From Diaphorobacter sp. HDW4B (GTDB taxonomy: Bacteria > Pseudomonadota > Gammaproteobacteria > Burkholderiales > Burkholderiaceae_C), in assembly GCF_011305535.1 (NCBI RefSeq), contig NZ_CP049905.1, forward strand, positions 4,090,001 through 4,154,000: DNA of 64,000 bases, given 5' to 3'. Position numbers and translations under genes: made by a program. Below are positions 9,780 through 15,825 of this stretch, in pieces; position 1 is the first letter of the stretch; the number at the start of each line of letters is the position of its first letter. The notes under the pieces are model-generated. The model saw nothing but the letters and a program-made list of their open reading frames with translations, was not told the origin of the DNA and did not search any database.

Positions 9780-11084
9780 TTAGCCAAATCTCTGCAGGCT
9801 GTACGAATCTGCACGCAAGTCGCAACCTTTGCCGGTGACGAGTTGCGCAATCAATTCCCCTGTCATTGGCGCGCCGGTCATCCCGGTATGCCCGTGACCG
9901 CAGGCCAGATAGAGGCCGGGAAGATGCGCCATCTCGTCGATGATCGGCACGCTGTCGGGAGTGGAGGGACGCAGCCCGAACCAACTGCTTGCCCCTTCGG
10001 TGTGGATGCCCGGAAACAGATCCCGTGCGGTGTTCAGTATCGACTCCACACGGCGTGATTGCGGGGCATGCCGCAGTCCCGCGATCTCCACCGTGCCTGC
10101 AAAACGCAAGCCGTTTTGCATAGGAGTGACGGCCACGGCCTTGTCCTTGTAGATGAAGGGTTGTGCAACGGTGACGCCGGGGTTGGGCAGTTCGACGTGA
10201 TAACCGCGCTCGAACTCGAGTGGAATGTGCACGCCGAGTGGCTTGACCAACTCTGCCGTGTACGCGCCAGCCGCCACCACGACTTTGGGCGTTGTTACAT
10301 CGCCCACGCTGGTCCACAAGCGGTATCCCTGTGCCAGGCGCTCGATTTTCTGAACGCTGCGGGCTTGCAGTTCCCCGCCTTCTTCCATGAAGCGCGCAAG
10401 CAGAGCGTGCGTCAACGCCTGCGGGCTGACGGTATTGGCATGCTCGGTGAAGCAAATGCCTGCGCGGACATGGCTTGCAATGTCCGGCATGCGGGCTCGC
10501 AACTGCTGCTGATCGAGCGGCTCTGTCGGTACCTGGTGCTGACGCCGCAGATCGGCCACCAGTTGATCCGCGCGGCTCGGCTTGCTGGCTTGCGACCAGA
10601 TATGCAACTGACCTTGCTGCTTGATCAACGCATGGAATCGCTCGTCACCCAGCAGCTCGCGGTAGCGTTGCAGCGCGGGAGAATGCAGGGCATGAAGCGC
10701 CGCACTGGCGCGGGTGACATTGGCTGTGGACGAGGAACGCAGCCATTTCACGACCCACGGAAGCGCCTTGAGCGCATAGGCCGGGCGCAGCGCGAGCGGA
10801 CCCTCCGGATCGAGCAGCCAGCGTGGCACTTGCCAGACCATGCCGGGCAACGAGATCGGAATGCAACTGCCCGTGCTGATCAACCCGGCATTGCCGAACG
10901 ATGCGCCACTGCCCGCGCCAGTCGCGTCCAGCAGCGCCACTTTGAGACCCGCGCGCTGCAGCGACAACGCTGTGCAAAGGCCGACAATGCCCGCGCCGAT
11001 CACGGTGATGTCTGCGGAAGTGGGGGATTCGATGAACGATGAAGAACGAGGCATGGGCAAAAGTGGGGAGCGGTATGCACCCAT
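9780..11084 (-). CDS. FAD-dependent oxidoreductase, D-amino-acid dehydrogenase (DadA)-like
   Basis: 434-residue DAO-fold flavoenzyme. The Rossmann FAD motif sits near the N-terminus (ITVIGAGIVGLCTALSLQRAG), followed by ATGAGSGASFGNAGLIS, which is typical of DadA-like proteins. The C-terminal end has GLRPSTPDSVPIIDE and LYLACGHGHTGMTGAPMTGELIAQLV, the second FAD-contacting segment. The likely reaction is oxidative deamination of a D-amino or imino acid with electrons passed to the respiratory chain. An alternative start at 11054 (MPRSSSFIES) is equally plausible; neither has a strong ribosome site. A Bug receptor gene diverges upstream and a LysR gene converges downstream, suggesting an uptake-and-oxidation unit. 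Substrate unknown. Confidence 0.82.
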   Translation of the reverse strand: MGAYRSPLLPMPRSSSFIESPTSADITVIGAGIVGLCTALSLQRAGLKVALLDATGAGSGASFGNAGLISTGSCIPISLPGMVWQVPRWLLDPEGPLALRPAYALKALPWVVKWLRSSSTANVTRASAALHALHSPALQRYRELLGDERFHALIKQQGQLHIWSQASKPSRADQLVADLRRQHQVPTEPLDQQQLRARMPDIASHVRAGICFTEHANTVSPQALTHALLARFMEEGGELQARSVQKIERLAQGYRLWTSVGDVTTPKVVVAAGAYTAELVKPLGVHIPLEFERGYHVELPNPGVTVAQPFIYKDKAVAVTPMQNGLRFAGTVEIAGLRHAPQSRRVESILNTARDLFPGIHTEGASSWFGLRPSTPDSVPIIDEMAHLPGLYLACGHGHTGMTGAPMTGELIAQLVTGKGCDLRADSYSLQRFG

Positions 11085-12341: not shown

Positions 12342-13346
12342 TTACCTCAGGCGCAGCCCGGCTGCCCGAATCGCACTCGCATACTTCGGCCGTTCGGTGC
12401 GCAGGCTTTCCGCAAGCGCGTCCGAACTGCCTGCATCGACCTTGTAGCCCAGTCCTTCCAATTGCACACGCACGTCTTCGGACTGCAGAACGCGCTGCAT
12501 GTCGCGGTTGATCTTGTGGACGATGGTGGACGGTGTTCCGGCCGGTGCGAAGTAGCCTTGCCAACTTTCGACTGCGTAGTTGGCGGGGCCGCCGGCTTCC
12601 GCCATGGTGGGGACTTGCGGCAGGCTGGGAGAGCGGTACGACGTCGTCACGGCGAGCGCTTTCAGCTTGCCTGCGCGCACGTACTCGGTGACGGCAGCCA
12701 GCGTGATCAGCGTGGCGTCCGTGTGACCAGCGAGCACGTCCAACGCGGCAGGTGCGCCACCGGGATAGGGGATGTAGTTCACCTTCGCACCGGTTGCCTG
12801 CGTGAGGATTTCATGGGCTACGTGGGCAATGCCGCCATTGGTTGGCAAGCCAAGGCTGATGCTTTCGGGCTTGGCGTTGGCTCGCGCAAGATAGTCCTTG
12901 AAATCGCGAATTCCAGTGGCTGGATTCACCACCAGAATCTGCGGATTCACGACGGCCTTGATGATGGGCGTGAAGGCTTTTTGCGAGTCGAACGGCAGTT
13001 GCGGCTGCAGCAGCGCGTTCAGCGTCAGACTCTCGCCTTGCTGAAGCAGCGTGTAGCCATCCGCCTGCGCCTTGGCCACCTTGGCCGCACCGATCACACC
13101 GCTTGCGCCCGCCACGTTTTCCACGATCACGGATTGCTTCCACAACTCACCGAGCTTCTCGGCCAGGATGCGCGTGAGCTTGTCCGCGCTGCCACCTGCA
13201 GAGACCGGAACAATGATGTGCACCGGCTTGCGCGGAAACTCGCTGGGATCGTTGGACGTGGCGTGGGCAGCAGTCCACGAGGTGAGCGTTGCGGAGGTCG
13301 CCAGCAGTGCGGCGAGCGAGCGAATCCAAATGCGTTTGGTGGGCAT
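12342..13346 (-). CDS. Bug-family (TctC-like) solute receptor
   Basis: 334-residue periplasmic receptor. Residues 1-29 form a Sec signal (MPTKRIWIRSLAALLATSATL, cleavage after AHA). The mature part begins with the usual FPRKPVHIIVPVSAGGSADKLTRI, and IVENVAGASGVIGAAKVA and YIPYPGGAPAALDVLAGHTD follow. It is convergent with the preceding Bug gene (39 bp between stops) and divergent from the cupin-rhodanese gene (213 bp). No tctAB genes are nearby. If the divergent gene is a functional partner, a sulfur-containing acid is a possible ligand, but nothing in the sequence shows this. Confidence 0.86.
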   Translation of the reverse strand: MPTKRIWIRSLAALLATSATLTSWTAAHATSNDPSEFPRKPVHIIVPVSAGGSADKLTRILAEKLGELWKQSVIVENVAGASGVIGAAKVAKAQADGYTLLQQGESLTLNALLQPQLPFDSQKAFTPIIKAVVNPQILVVNPATGIRDFKDYLARANAKPESISLGLPTNGGIAHVAHEILTQATGAKVNYIPYPGGAPAALDVLAGHTDATLITLAAVTEYVRAGKLKALAVTTSYRSPSLPQVPTMAEAGGPANYAVESWQGYFAPAGTPSTIVHKINRDMQRVLQSEDVRVQLEGLGYKVDAGSSDALAESLRTERPKYASAIRAAGLRLR

Positions 13347-13559: not shown

Positions 13560-15776
13560 ATGACAACGACCCATCTCTCCATCGATTTCAGTGGCGCGGA
13601 CATCGCCAGCCGCCGAGCCAATGCCGTCGCAAGTTTCATTGCTGTGGCGCGCAGGTTGGTGCCTGATCCGGAAAACGCGCAGAAGGCGGCGCTGCAATCG
13701 GTGGCACGAGCGCTGGAGGCCTTGGCTGCACAGACGGATCTTTTTCCGATCGAGCAATTCCCTGTGTCTGCAGAAACCCCGGCTGCGGTGTTTCGGCTGA
13801 GCGAGGATGTCGATGGCCGCTATGCGCTGTATGCGACCGTGGGGTTGCCGGGCAAGGCGCAGCCTCCGCACGATCACACGACCTGGGCCATCATTGCCGG
13901 GTCTTCGGGTGTGGAGCGCAATGTGTTTTTCAGGCGTGAGAAAACCAAGGATCCGGAGCGCGACATTCTGACGAGTACTTCGACGGTGGATGTGGGTTTG
14001 GGCAATTCGGTATTGCTCGGTCCGGAGGATGTGCACACGATCGAACTCATCGGCGAGGCCACGGGCATTCATCTGCATTTCTACGGTCGTGGTCTGGATC
14101 GACTGCCTGAGCGCGTGGTGTTTGAAAACACGGCAGGCGGCAAGTTCCGTACGTTCGCGCCCCCGAAGCTGATTCGCCATGCGACGGTCAGCGCCGAGCA
14201 ACTGAAGCAGGCCATTGCAGCGGGTGACGAGATCGCGGTGCTGGATGTGCGCGAGGCGGGCGTGTTCGCGCGTCGGCATATTCTGTTTGCGGCACCGACG
14301 CCGCTGTGGCGCTTGGAAGTGCAGATCGACCGCTTGGTGCCGCGTCGCAATACGCGCATCGTTCTGGTGGATGCGGACGAGTCGCTGGTGCATGCGGCTG
14401 CGCACAAGTTGATTCGTCTGGGCTACACCAATGTGTCGGTGCTGGCGGGTGGAACGAATGGATGGGAAGCCGCTGGCTTCGAAATATTTCGCGGAACGAA
14501 TGTGCCTACCAAAGCGTTTGGCGAAGTCATCGAGCATGAGAAGGACACGCCCTGGATCACGTCCGAAGAGCTGGATGAACGCGTGAAGAAGGGCGACAAC
14601 ATCGTGGTGGTCGACAGCCGAACGACCGAGGAGTTCACTGCCTTCACGCTGCCGTTCTCGTACAGCTTGCCGGGTGCGGAGCTGGTGTATCGCATCGGCG
14701 AGATCGCGCCTGATCCGCAGACGCTTGTGGTGGTGAACTGCGCGGGGCGCACGCGCAGCATTGTGGGTGCGCAGACTTTGATCGACGCGGGCATACCCAA
14801 TCGCGTGGTGTCGCTTCGCAATGGCACGATGGACTGGTTGCTGACGGGCCGCGAGTTGGCGTATGGGCGCAAGCCGCAGTTGCCCGAGCCGAGTGCCGAG
14901 CAAGCGGCGATTGCGCGTGTGCGGGCCGCGCAGGTGGCGCAGCGTGCGGGCGTCAGGCGCATTGACGAAGCAGAGCTGGCGCGTTTTCAGGACGAGGACA
15001 AGGAACGCACGCTGTATCTGTTCGACGTACGCACGCGTGCCGAGTACCAGGTGGGCCATCTCGACGGCTGGCGTTGGGCTTCGGGTGGACAACTGGTGCA
15101 GGCCACCGACGAATATGCGGCCACACGCGGTGCGCGCATTGTGTTGGCGGATTGGGATGGTGTGCGTGCGTTGACCACCGCTGCCTGGCTTGCGCAGTTG
15201 GGCGGTTGGGAGGTGTACGTGTATGCCCCGCCGCAGCGCGCACCGCGTGTGACGGGTGCAGAGCCGGTGCGCGTGTTGTCGCTGCATGCAGTGCGGCATC
15301 AGGTCTCGCCAGCGCAGGCCAACGCGTTGCTTTCAGCGGGAGCTGCGACCCACGTGTTTGATGTGGACAGCCGCACGGCATACGTGCGTCAGCATGTTGC
15401 GGGAGCCGCGTTTGTTGCGCCGGATCGCTTGCGTGAGTTTGTCGAGCCTTTGCCTGAGCAGCAGACGGTCATTCTTTTGACATCGCCGGATGGCGTGCTC
15501 GCGCAGACTGTTGCCGAGGAACTGCGCGCGCAGACCGGGCGTGATGTGCGCTCGATTGCGGGCGGTACGGCGGCCTGGGTCGCTGCGGGTTTGCCGGTGG
15601 GAAACGCGGCTGATGCGCAGGTGCTGACCGAGGACGATGATCAGGCCTACAGCCCGTATGCGTTCAGCGATCTGACAAAGCGCGATGCCGGGTTTGTGGA
15701 CTATCTCGATTGGGAACTGGGTTTGGTGGGGCAACTGCAGAAGGAAGGGCACACAGGGATTGGACTGATCTCCTGA
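13560..15776 (+). CDS. Fusion of cysteine-dioxygenase-like cupin with four rhodanese domains
   Basis: 738-residue cytoplasmic protein without signal or membrane segments. Residues 1-190 are a cupin like cysteine or mercaptopropionate dioxygenase, with a possible 3-His iron site H104/H106 (PPHDHTTWAI) and H171 or H173 (HLHF). Four rhodanese (sulfurtransferase) domains follow at about 200-305, 335-445, 485-570 and 585-690. Only the second has the catalytic Cys, C394 in VNCAGRTRS. The equivalent positions of the others are D271, D531 and T641/S642, so they are probably structural. This suggests oxidation of a thiol or persulfide coupled to sulfur transfer. Multi-rhodanese proteins exist in this family of bacteria; the cupin fusion is less usual. 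Reaction not established. The start at 13560 is the only good ATG. Confidence 0.85.
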   Translation: MTTTHLSIDFSGADIASRRANAVASFIAVARRLVPDPENAQKAALQSVARALEALAAQTDLFPIEQFPVSAETPAAVFRLSEDVDGRYALYATVGLPGKAQPPHDHTTWAIIAGSSGVERNVFFRREKTKDPERDILTSTSTVDVGLGNSVLLGPEDVHTIELIGEATGIHLHFYGRGLDRLPERVVFENTAGGKFRTFAPPKLIRHATVSAEQLKQAIAAGDEIAVLDVREAGVFARRHILFAAPTPLWRLEVQIDRLVPRRNTRIVLVDADESLVHAAAHKLIRLGYTNVSVLAGGTNGWEAAGFEIFRGTNVPTKAFGEVIEHEKDTPWITSEELDERVKKGDNIVVVDSRTTEEFTAFTLPFSYSLPGAELVYRIGEIAPDPQTLVVVNCAGRTRSIVGAQTLIDAGIPNRVVSLRNGTMDWLLTGRELAYGRKPQLPEPSAEQAAIARVRAAQVAQRAGVRRIDEAELARFQDEDKERTLYLFDVRTRAEYQVGHLDGWRWASGGQLVQATDEYAATRGARIVLADWDGVRALTTAAWLAQLGGWEVYVYAPPQRAPRVTGAEPVRVLSLHAVRHQVSPAQANALLSAGAATHVFDVDSRTAYVRQHVAGAAFVAPDRLREFVEPLPEQQTVILLTSPDGVLAQTVAEELRAQTGRDVRSIAGGTAAWVAAGLPVGNAADAQVLTEDDDQAYSPYAFSDLTKRDAGFVDYLDWELGLVGQLQKEGHTGIGLIS

Positions 15777-15801
15777 ACCGGGCGTGCGCCTCGGTCCCTT
15801 T

Positions 15802-15825
15802 GCCCCGCCTCGGCGGGGCTTTTTT
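15802..15825 (+). terminator. Intrinsic terminator after the cupin-rhodanese gene
   Basis: GCCCCGCC (15802-15809) pairs with GGCGGGGC (15812-15819), giving a compact stem with a CTCG tetraloop, and six T follow. It lies 25 bp after the stop codon. Confidence 0.9.

Follow-up and report, generated by a model that had tools for sequence, protein, structure and literature searches.

Msdo, the thiol dioxygenase of Variovorax paradoxus B4 and Advenella mimigardefordensis (structure 8vni), oxidizes mercaptosuccinate to sulfinosuccinate, which breaks down to succinate and sulfite (excerpts of PMC5373536). For the rhodanese encoded in the same gene set, these excerpts hold two proposals: detoxification of sulfite or supply of the molybdenum cofactor (PMC5373536). 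Here we describe a gene of Diaphorobacter sp. HDW4B that joins a thiol dioxygenase and a rhodanese module in one reading frame. It lies in a stretch of 64,000 nucleotides (contig NZ_CP049905.1, positions 4,090,001 to 4,154,000 of the forward strand), called the window in the following, and encodes an Msdo-like cupin followed by four rhodanese domains. We propose that this fusion is a bifunctional enzyme of organosulfur catabolism in which the cupin makes sulfinate/sulfite and Cys394 most likely converts sulfite and a persulfide to thiosulfate; we give this reading about an even chance. Since related species often keep the two parts as neighbouring genes, the fusion is probably a real enzyme for the breakdown of an organic sulfur compound.

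CstB and PRF also unite a sulfur dioxygenase and a sulfurtransferase in one chain, and the dioxygenase of these two proteins and of Blh has a metallo-beta-lactamase fold. For Blh, the same combination of activities in one chain is described in excerpts of PMC5823870. In contrast to these systems, the dioxygenase of the present protein is a cupin close to 8vni, and it is joined to four rhodanese folds, one of them with Cys. The protein represents a known gene pair in fused form rather than a persulfide dioxygenase-rhodanese protein. Literature searches confined to openly licensed papers returned no published description of this fusion. The dioxygenase half can be overlooked because the annotated record from Variovorax paradoxus VAI-C (locus L142), a fusion 63% identical to the present one, names its product only as 'sulfurtransferase'.

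Architecture of the fusion protein

The gene and its parts are as follows (window coordinates).

13560–15776, + strand: whole gene of the thiol dioxygenase-four-rhodanese fusion, a single open frame from ATG (13560) to stop (15776), 738 residues
13587–14180, + strand: thiol-dioxygenase cupin domain, residues 10–207, by structural match to 8vni
13869–13871, 13875–13877 and 14034–14036, + strand: codons of the predicted Fe ligands H104, H106 and H159, by conservation in the aligned fusions
H173 and Y175, + strand: predicted outer-sphere residues of the cupin domain, by alignment position
14181–15773, + strand: four-rhodanese module, residues 208–738, by structural match to 1yt8 and four Pfam Rhodanese matches
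14739–14756, + strand: active-site loop of rhodanese domain 2, C394-A-G-R-T-R399, by alignment; loop-ending Arg as in RDL2 (excerpts of PMC8533005)

The relatives discussed here are 80 named loci, which rank highest among 569 confirmed relatives (from 597 listed pattern stretches) that came from scanning GTDB species genomes with two conserved peptides. Both parts stand in one frame at 40 loci (L070, L091 and L127 end at contig ends), 28 have separate dioxygenase and rhodanese ORFs, and 12 have the rhodanese alone in the fetched stretch; because the loci are the best 80 of 569 and were found by two conserved peptides, these shares are not population frequencies. Three records are duplicates (L063 of L050, L127 of L059, L135 of L055). 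The 40 single-frame loci rule out a frame error or an assembly artefact: the open reading frame at 13560–15776 and its fusion architecture are real. An alignment of 47 fused proteins comprises 44 of Msdo type, including the present protein, and three of 3-mercaptopropionate dioxygenase (3MDO) type; L059/L127, L070, L091 (partial) and L063 (duplicate) were left out. Motifs common to all 47 are well beyond chance.

The protein had been described in an earlier note, made from the sequence alone, as a cupin like cysteine dioxygenase (CDO) followed by four rhodaneses. The fusion and the rhodaneses stand, with Pfam Rhodanese matching at four stretches of the 738 residues (E 1.2e-38). The cupin is nearer to Msdo. 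Pfam's CDO family gave no match to the 738-residue protein at E ≤ 1, and a PHB_acc_N match at residues 331–364 (E 4e-4, below cut-off) was taken as chance. Searched against solved structures, the full protein splits into residues 15–197, which match 8vni (E 2.5e-30), and residues 213–735, which match the four-rhodanese chain 1yt8 (E 8.6e-121). The N-terminal 200 residues alone find 8vni with E 2.5e-31, and CDO and 3MDO structures weakly (E 7e-4 to 7e-3).

Structure prediction, which the earlier note had suggested, agrees with this division. An AlphaFold2 model from the alignment of 47 fused proteins has a mean pLDDT of 91.7 and a pTM of 0.91. With structural neighbours ranked by Foldseek and also by Z score, residues 10–207 of the model superimpose on 8vni (Z 26.8, rmsd 1.8 Å, 191 residues, 36% identity) and residues 207–738 on 1yt8 (Z 59.3, rmsd 2.1 Å, 522 residues, 43% identity). 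Scores for 3MDO-type structures are 21–22 and for animal CDO about 19 (about 17–22 for the 3MDO/CDO set overall). No structure among the matches listed covers both halves, since none aligns over more than 522 residues.

Metal site and substrate pocket

The cupin belongs to the Msdo side of the thiol-dioxygenase family and is not a CDO proper, which is ruled out by the Z score of about 19 for animal CDO versus 26.8 for 8vni. Animal CDO contains a Cys–Tyr cross-link. This modification is impossible here because the protein has no cysteine other than C394.

H104, H106, H159, E119 and Y175 are invariant in all 47 aligned fusions. Position 173 is His in 46 of 47 (Gln once), and position 171 is His in 43, Ser in three and Gln in one. 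Aligned with the family, H159 falls on the third metal histidine, and the segment H171-x-H173-x-Y175 falls on the Ser-His-Tyr motif, whose Ser is replaced by His just as it is in Msdo 8vni. The predicted iron ligands are H104, H106 and H159. The first reading of the sequence had chosen H104 and H106 together with H171/H173: the first pair holds, and H171/H173 is ruled out as the third ligand, because both residues sit in the outer-sphere motif and the invariant H159 takes the third-histidine place. A partial relative from a metagenome-assembled genome (MAG), L070, which lies outside the 47-row alignment, has Asp at the position of Y175.

The carboxylate-binding Arg of thiol dioxygenases shifts between lineages, from position 61 in the Arg-type enzymes to Arg168 in Av3MDO (excerpts of PMC8050391). 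In 8vni, an Arg aligned with V77 of the present protein presumably acts as the carboxylate binder. The 47 fusions have Ile (27), Val (15), Gln (3) or Leu (2) at this position, and 40 of them carry an Arg two positions on, at R79. From these substitutions we infer that the substrate pocket differs from that of Msdo.

The fusion shares with Msdo the cupin fold, the HxH...H metal set and the His at the motif's Ser place, and many fused loci have rhodanese, cystathionine beta-lyase and polar-amino-acid-type (PAAT) importer genes nearby, as Msdo does. In contrast to Msdo, to which it is 36% identical, it lacks the 8vni Arg at V77, has R79 and is covalently joined to its rhodanese. In the dioxygenase tree, 8vni pairs with L060 of genome G003 (100/100), outside the clade of 47 Msdo-type fused rows. 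Judged by clade and by Arg position, the fusion cupin is not itself an Msdo.

The rhodanese module and its single cysteine

The position of the active cysteine is occupied by D271 in domain 1, C394 in domain 2, D531 in domain 3 and S642 in domain 4, which bears out the earlier claim that only the second rhodanese domain has Cys. The domain 2 Cys is present in all 95 four-rhodanese rows compared (47 fused and 48 unfused). Domain 1 has Asp in 88 of the 95, and domain 3 has Asp in 94 and Cys in one. Domain 4 has Ser in 70, Ala in 15 and Cys in ten, all ten being partners of the 3MDO type. By this tally, one active domain beside otherwise degenerate ones is the usual state of the four-rhodanese family and no peculiarity of the present protein: the three Cys-less folds recognized in the earlier note are indeed degenerate, as a family-wide feature. 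The closest solved structure, 1yt8 from Pseudomonas aeruginosa (deposited as thiosulfate sulfurtransferase), resembles the whole 207–738 region and has the same Cys loop in domain 2. It differs in being a stand-alone chain and in having Cys in domain 4 where the fusion has Ser642.

The domain 2 loop, CAGRTR, has six residues and ends with Arg399; C394, R397, T398 and R399 are conserved in 47 of 47 aligned fusions. Yeast RDL2 requires the Arg at the end of its loop for taking sulfur from thiosulfate (excerpts of PMC8533005).

Exactly one Cys is found in 18 of the 47 fused proteins; within the Burkholderiales clade this is true of 18 of 19 rows (L069 has two). From the frequency of cysteine in the window itself, about six cysteines would be expected in 738 residues, and the Poisson probability of one or none is about 0.016. 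As evidence by itself, the single-cysteine state has to be tempered, because six of the 13 other called window proteins of at least 400 residues have one Cys (five proteins) or none (one protein).

Distribution and age of the fusion

Matches at E ≤ 1e-30 occur in 55 of 299 genomes sampled from the family. Eight of the 299 contain a full-length Msdo-type fusion (G000, G003, G222, G291, G193, G255, G165 and G197), G072 has a copy that ends at a contig end, and the fusions of G084, G187 and G262 are only 36% identical. In the wider class, four of 369 genomes match at E ≤ 1e-100; the full-length frame is unbroken only in G000, and the match in G393 (residues 18–731) contains two stops. Among the genera that carry the fusion are Achromobacter, Cupriavidus, Bordetella, Pseudorhodoferax, Reyranella and Stella. 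Where dioxygenase and rhodanese are separate ORFs, the two genes adjoin at 26 of 28 loci (L115 with a doubtful dioxygenase match).

The dioxygenase-domain tree has 103 rows (L063, L127, L135, L061, L115, rows of 120 residues or fewer and the separate dioxygenase of L076 were left out). One clade (100/95) unites its 47 Msdo-type fused rows, and another (98/99) the three fused rows of 3MDO type. The longest branch of the tree, which is fully supported, separates these two clades, and the fused label changes twice (5–95% range 2–2 in 200 bootstrap trees), a count that cannot separate gain from loss. As judged from this tree, the fusion is old, and the joining of a dioxygenase to a four-rhodanese partner appears to have arisen twice, separately in the Msdo and the 3MDO type. 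The rhodanese tree (95 rows from 102, after removal of L063, L127, L135, L061, L059 and rows of 400 residues or fewer) is less tidy than the dioxygenase tree, so cupin loss or exchange of partners may also have occurred. One protein of the fused clade, from a Curvibacter MAG (L072:5857-7602), has no cupin in frame and keeps the N-terminal tail and the rhodaneses.

3MDO (4tlf, 6xb9) resembles the cupin of the fusion in the type of reaction predicted for the latter and in having a four-rhodanese partner, adjoining at L054 and L055 and fused at L056–L058. It differs in its place across the longest branch of the dioxygenase tree and in its motifs, QQYLL and SISIHVYG as opposed to YRL and HLHFYG in the fusion. 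The second fusion, of a 3MDO-type dioxygenase and a four-rhodanese module, is found at L056:7401-9593, L057:6875-9067 and L058:8038-10239, with neighbours labelled, from sequence starts only, as DsbB-like, YggX-like and chromate-transporter-like. At eight loci of a Reyranella-like clade (L090, L095, L096, L097, L098, L099, L101 and L103), the other strand encodes a stand-alone 3MDO-type dioxygenase within a few kb of the Msdo-type fusion.

Gene neighbourhood

About 70 kb away from the fusion, the same genome contains a locus (L016) with genes for a four-rhodanese protein, a PAAT solute-binding protein, two permeases, an ATPase, an Msdo-type dioxygenase and a cystathionine beta-lyase-like protein. 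The lyase scores above the TIGR01324 cut-off (390.5 versus 365.9); the best model for the ATPase is L-cystine TcyN, below cut-off (309.5 versus 406). In A. mimigardefordensis the same gene set surrounds msdo, the deletion of which abolishes growth on mercaptosuccinate (excerpts of PMC5373536). An Msdo-cluster-type dioxygenase with at least 60% identity occurs in seven of nine genomes with an Msdo-type fusion versus three of 290 without (Fisher 1e-10, relatedness ignored); this count leaves out G109 (48%), matches at 40–44% and a 60-residue piece in G267 (65%).

Similar genes lie near the fusion itself in many close relatives, which links it within the Burkholderiales to genes of thiol catabolism. 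Of 19 close fused loci, 12 have a cystathionine beta-lyase-like gene and a PAAT ATPase in the fetched stretch, ten a Bug receptor and nine a separate Msdo-type dioxygenase. The 27 other Msdo-type fused loci include L070 and L091, close-clade genes that end at contig ends. For these counts we set the identity thresholds and the line between close and other loci ourselves, and the stretches vary in length; L063, L127, L135, L061, L049, L051, L060 and L059 were left out, and genes outside the anchors were called by our own codon-usage script rather than a standard gene finder. At L045, in G003, the fusion has importer and lyase genes as neighbours; the stretch contains neither a separate msdo nor a separate rhodanese gene, but G003 carries an msdo and a four-rhodanese gene elsewhere (L060). 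L083 (Cupriavidus pauculus) has the same layout as far as the stretch reaches, and in Stella (L079) a lyase gene directly follows the fusion.

Other features of the window near the gene are the following.

12342–13346, − strand: TctC/Bug-type tripartite-tricarboxylate-transporter (TTT) receptor, divergent, left of the fusion (PF03401, E 3.6e-55)
15798–15819, + strand: terminator-like hairpin with T-run, directly 3' of the stop codon
18406–22077, − strand: ProX, ProW and ProV of a glycine betaine/proline importer, all above NCBIfam cut-offs
9780–11084, − strand: D-amino-acid-dehydrogenase-like FAD enzyme (below NCBIfam cut-offs), near LysR genes

The hairpin is suggestive only, because three such sites were found versus 2.8 expected in shuffles. 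A response-regulator gene lies to the right of the fusion, and none of the related loci compared has a counterpart of the FAD enzyme. In V. paradoxus VAI-C (L142), the neighbours of the fusion are a TTT receptor, a CysB-family regulator, two luciferase-like monooxygenases and alkylhydroperoxidase-domain genes. In Achromobacter dolens (L066:8387-10663), the genes after the fusion encode a 3-mercaptopyruvate-sulfurtransferase-like protein (143 bits against a cut-off of 250) and a sulfur transporter of YeeE type (Sulf_transp). Two Mo-co_dimer matches in the genome of the present strain were considered as a link to sulfite oxidase; they lie far from the fusion gene and were not used.

Proposed function

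The mechanism that we favour would run in three steps. With Fe(II) on H104, H106 and H159, the cupin would add O2 to a small, probably carboxylated thiol to form a sulfinic acid. If the mercaptosuccinate case is a guide, this sulfinate would release sulfite, enzymatically or spontaneously. Cys394 would hold sulfane sulfur as a persulfide and exchange it with sulfite, most likely in the direction that turns toxic sulfite and a cellular persulfide into thiosulfate. The Cys-less domains 1, 3 and 4 of the rhodanese module may serve as framework or docking surface, and the single chain would keep production and removal of sulfite together. The earlier idea of a single-chain protein for thiol oxidation and sulfur transfer is consistent with fold, family and neighbourhood, once the assignment to CDO proper is dropped and the metal set corrected.

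Several observations weigh against this assignment. The substrate may not be mercaptosuccinate, because the 8vni Arg aligned with V77 is absent. Six of the 12 loci that have lyase and importer are from Achromobacter, so the 12 do not count as independent cases, and in the remaining 25 other loci a lyase occurs only at L079 and an importer at none. No sulfite-handling gene was seen beside the fusion in most loci read. The fused label changes eight times on the rhodanese tree, at least five of these changes being forced. According to the excerpts of PMC5373536, other enzymes were thought to oxidize the sulfite in Advenella, and a role in serving the molybdenum cofactor was proposed for the rhodanese encoded in the Variovorax cluster. 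Glutathione persulfide (GSSH) and sulfite form thiosulfate even without an enzyme (excerpts of PMC8533005), and this makes a sulfite trap less necessary.

The same components could also operate in the reverse order, with the rhodanese feeding the dioxygenase. Cystathionine beta-lyase-like enzymes convert cystine to cysteine persulfide. A C–S lyase might cleave an imported cystine-like disulfide to R-S-SH, Cys394 would take the outer sulfur and the cupin would oxidize the freed thiol. The lyase and importer genes at 12 of 19 close loci, with an ATPase nearest to an L-cystine model (below cut-off), would fit this sequence of events, and so would the sulfurtransferase-like and YeeE-type genes that follow the fusion in A. 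dolens. We consider it doubtful, since most of the distant fused loci show neither lyase nor importer and the characterized relative, Msdo, uses a plain thiol (excerpts of PMC5373536). If instead the two halves served unrelated reactions, for example with the rhodanese in sulfur trafficking or cofactor assembly, the fusion would only secure co-expression. Such independence would account for the 12 named loci with a four-rhodanese gene and no dioxygenase in the fetched stretch, for the Curvibacter protein that keeps its rhodaneses without a cupin, and for a fused label that changes more often on the rhodanese tree than on the dioxygenase tree. Yet fusion in two dioxygenase subfamilies together with frequent adjacency is hard to explain without a common substrate or product, and the AlphaFold2 model packs as a single body, as its pTM indicates; we regard unrelated halves as quite unlikely. 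For the cupin, a regulatory or sensory role with no dioxygenase turnover is very improbable. Its presumed carboxylate-binding Arg is unlike that of Msdo and 3MDO, and L070 has Asp in place of the Tyr, but the three metal histidines and the Tyr are kept in every aligned fusion, the motif His in all except one, and the domain sits on the Msdo side of the tree.

The bifunctional reading, from thiol through sulfinate to thiosulfate, can be carried further. The fusion might be a single-chain thiol-to-thiosulfate converter that oxidizes a novel thiol carboxylate (with the Arg moved from 77 to 79) and passes the sulfite-level product internally to the C394 persulfide, with the three Cys-less folds as the passage and the whole architecture reached separately by two dioxygenase subfamilies. 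We put this forward as a speculative and rather unlikely extension. If it were true, the substrate would be a thiol carboxylate used by no characterized thiol dioxygenase. On the role of the rhodanese beside Msdo or 3MDO and on the fate of the sulfite, the excerpts of PMC5373536 give more than one proposal. A natural fusion with a single cysteine makes such proposals testable in one protein and by one mutation.

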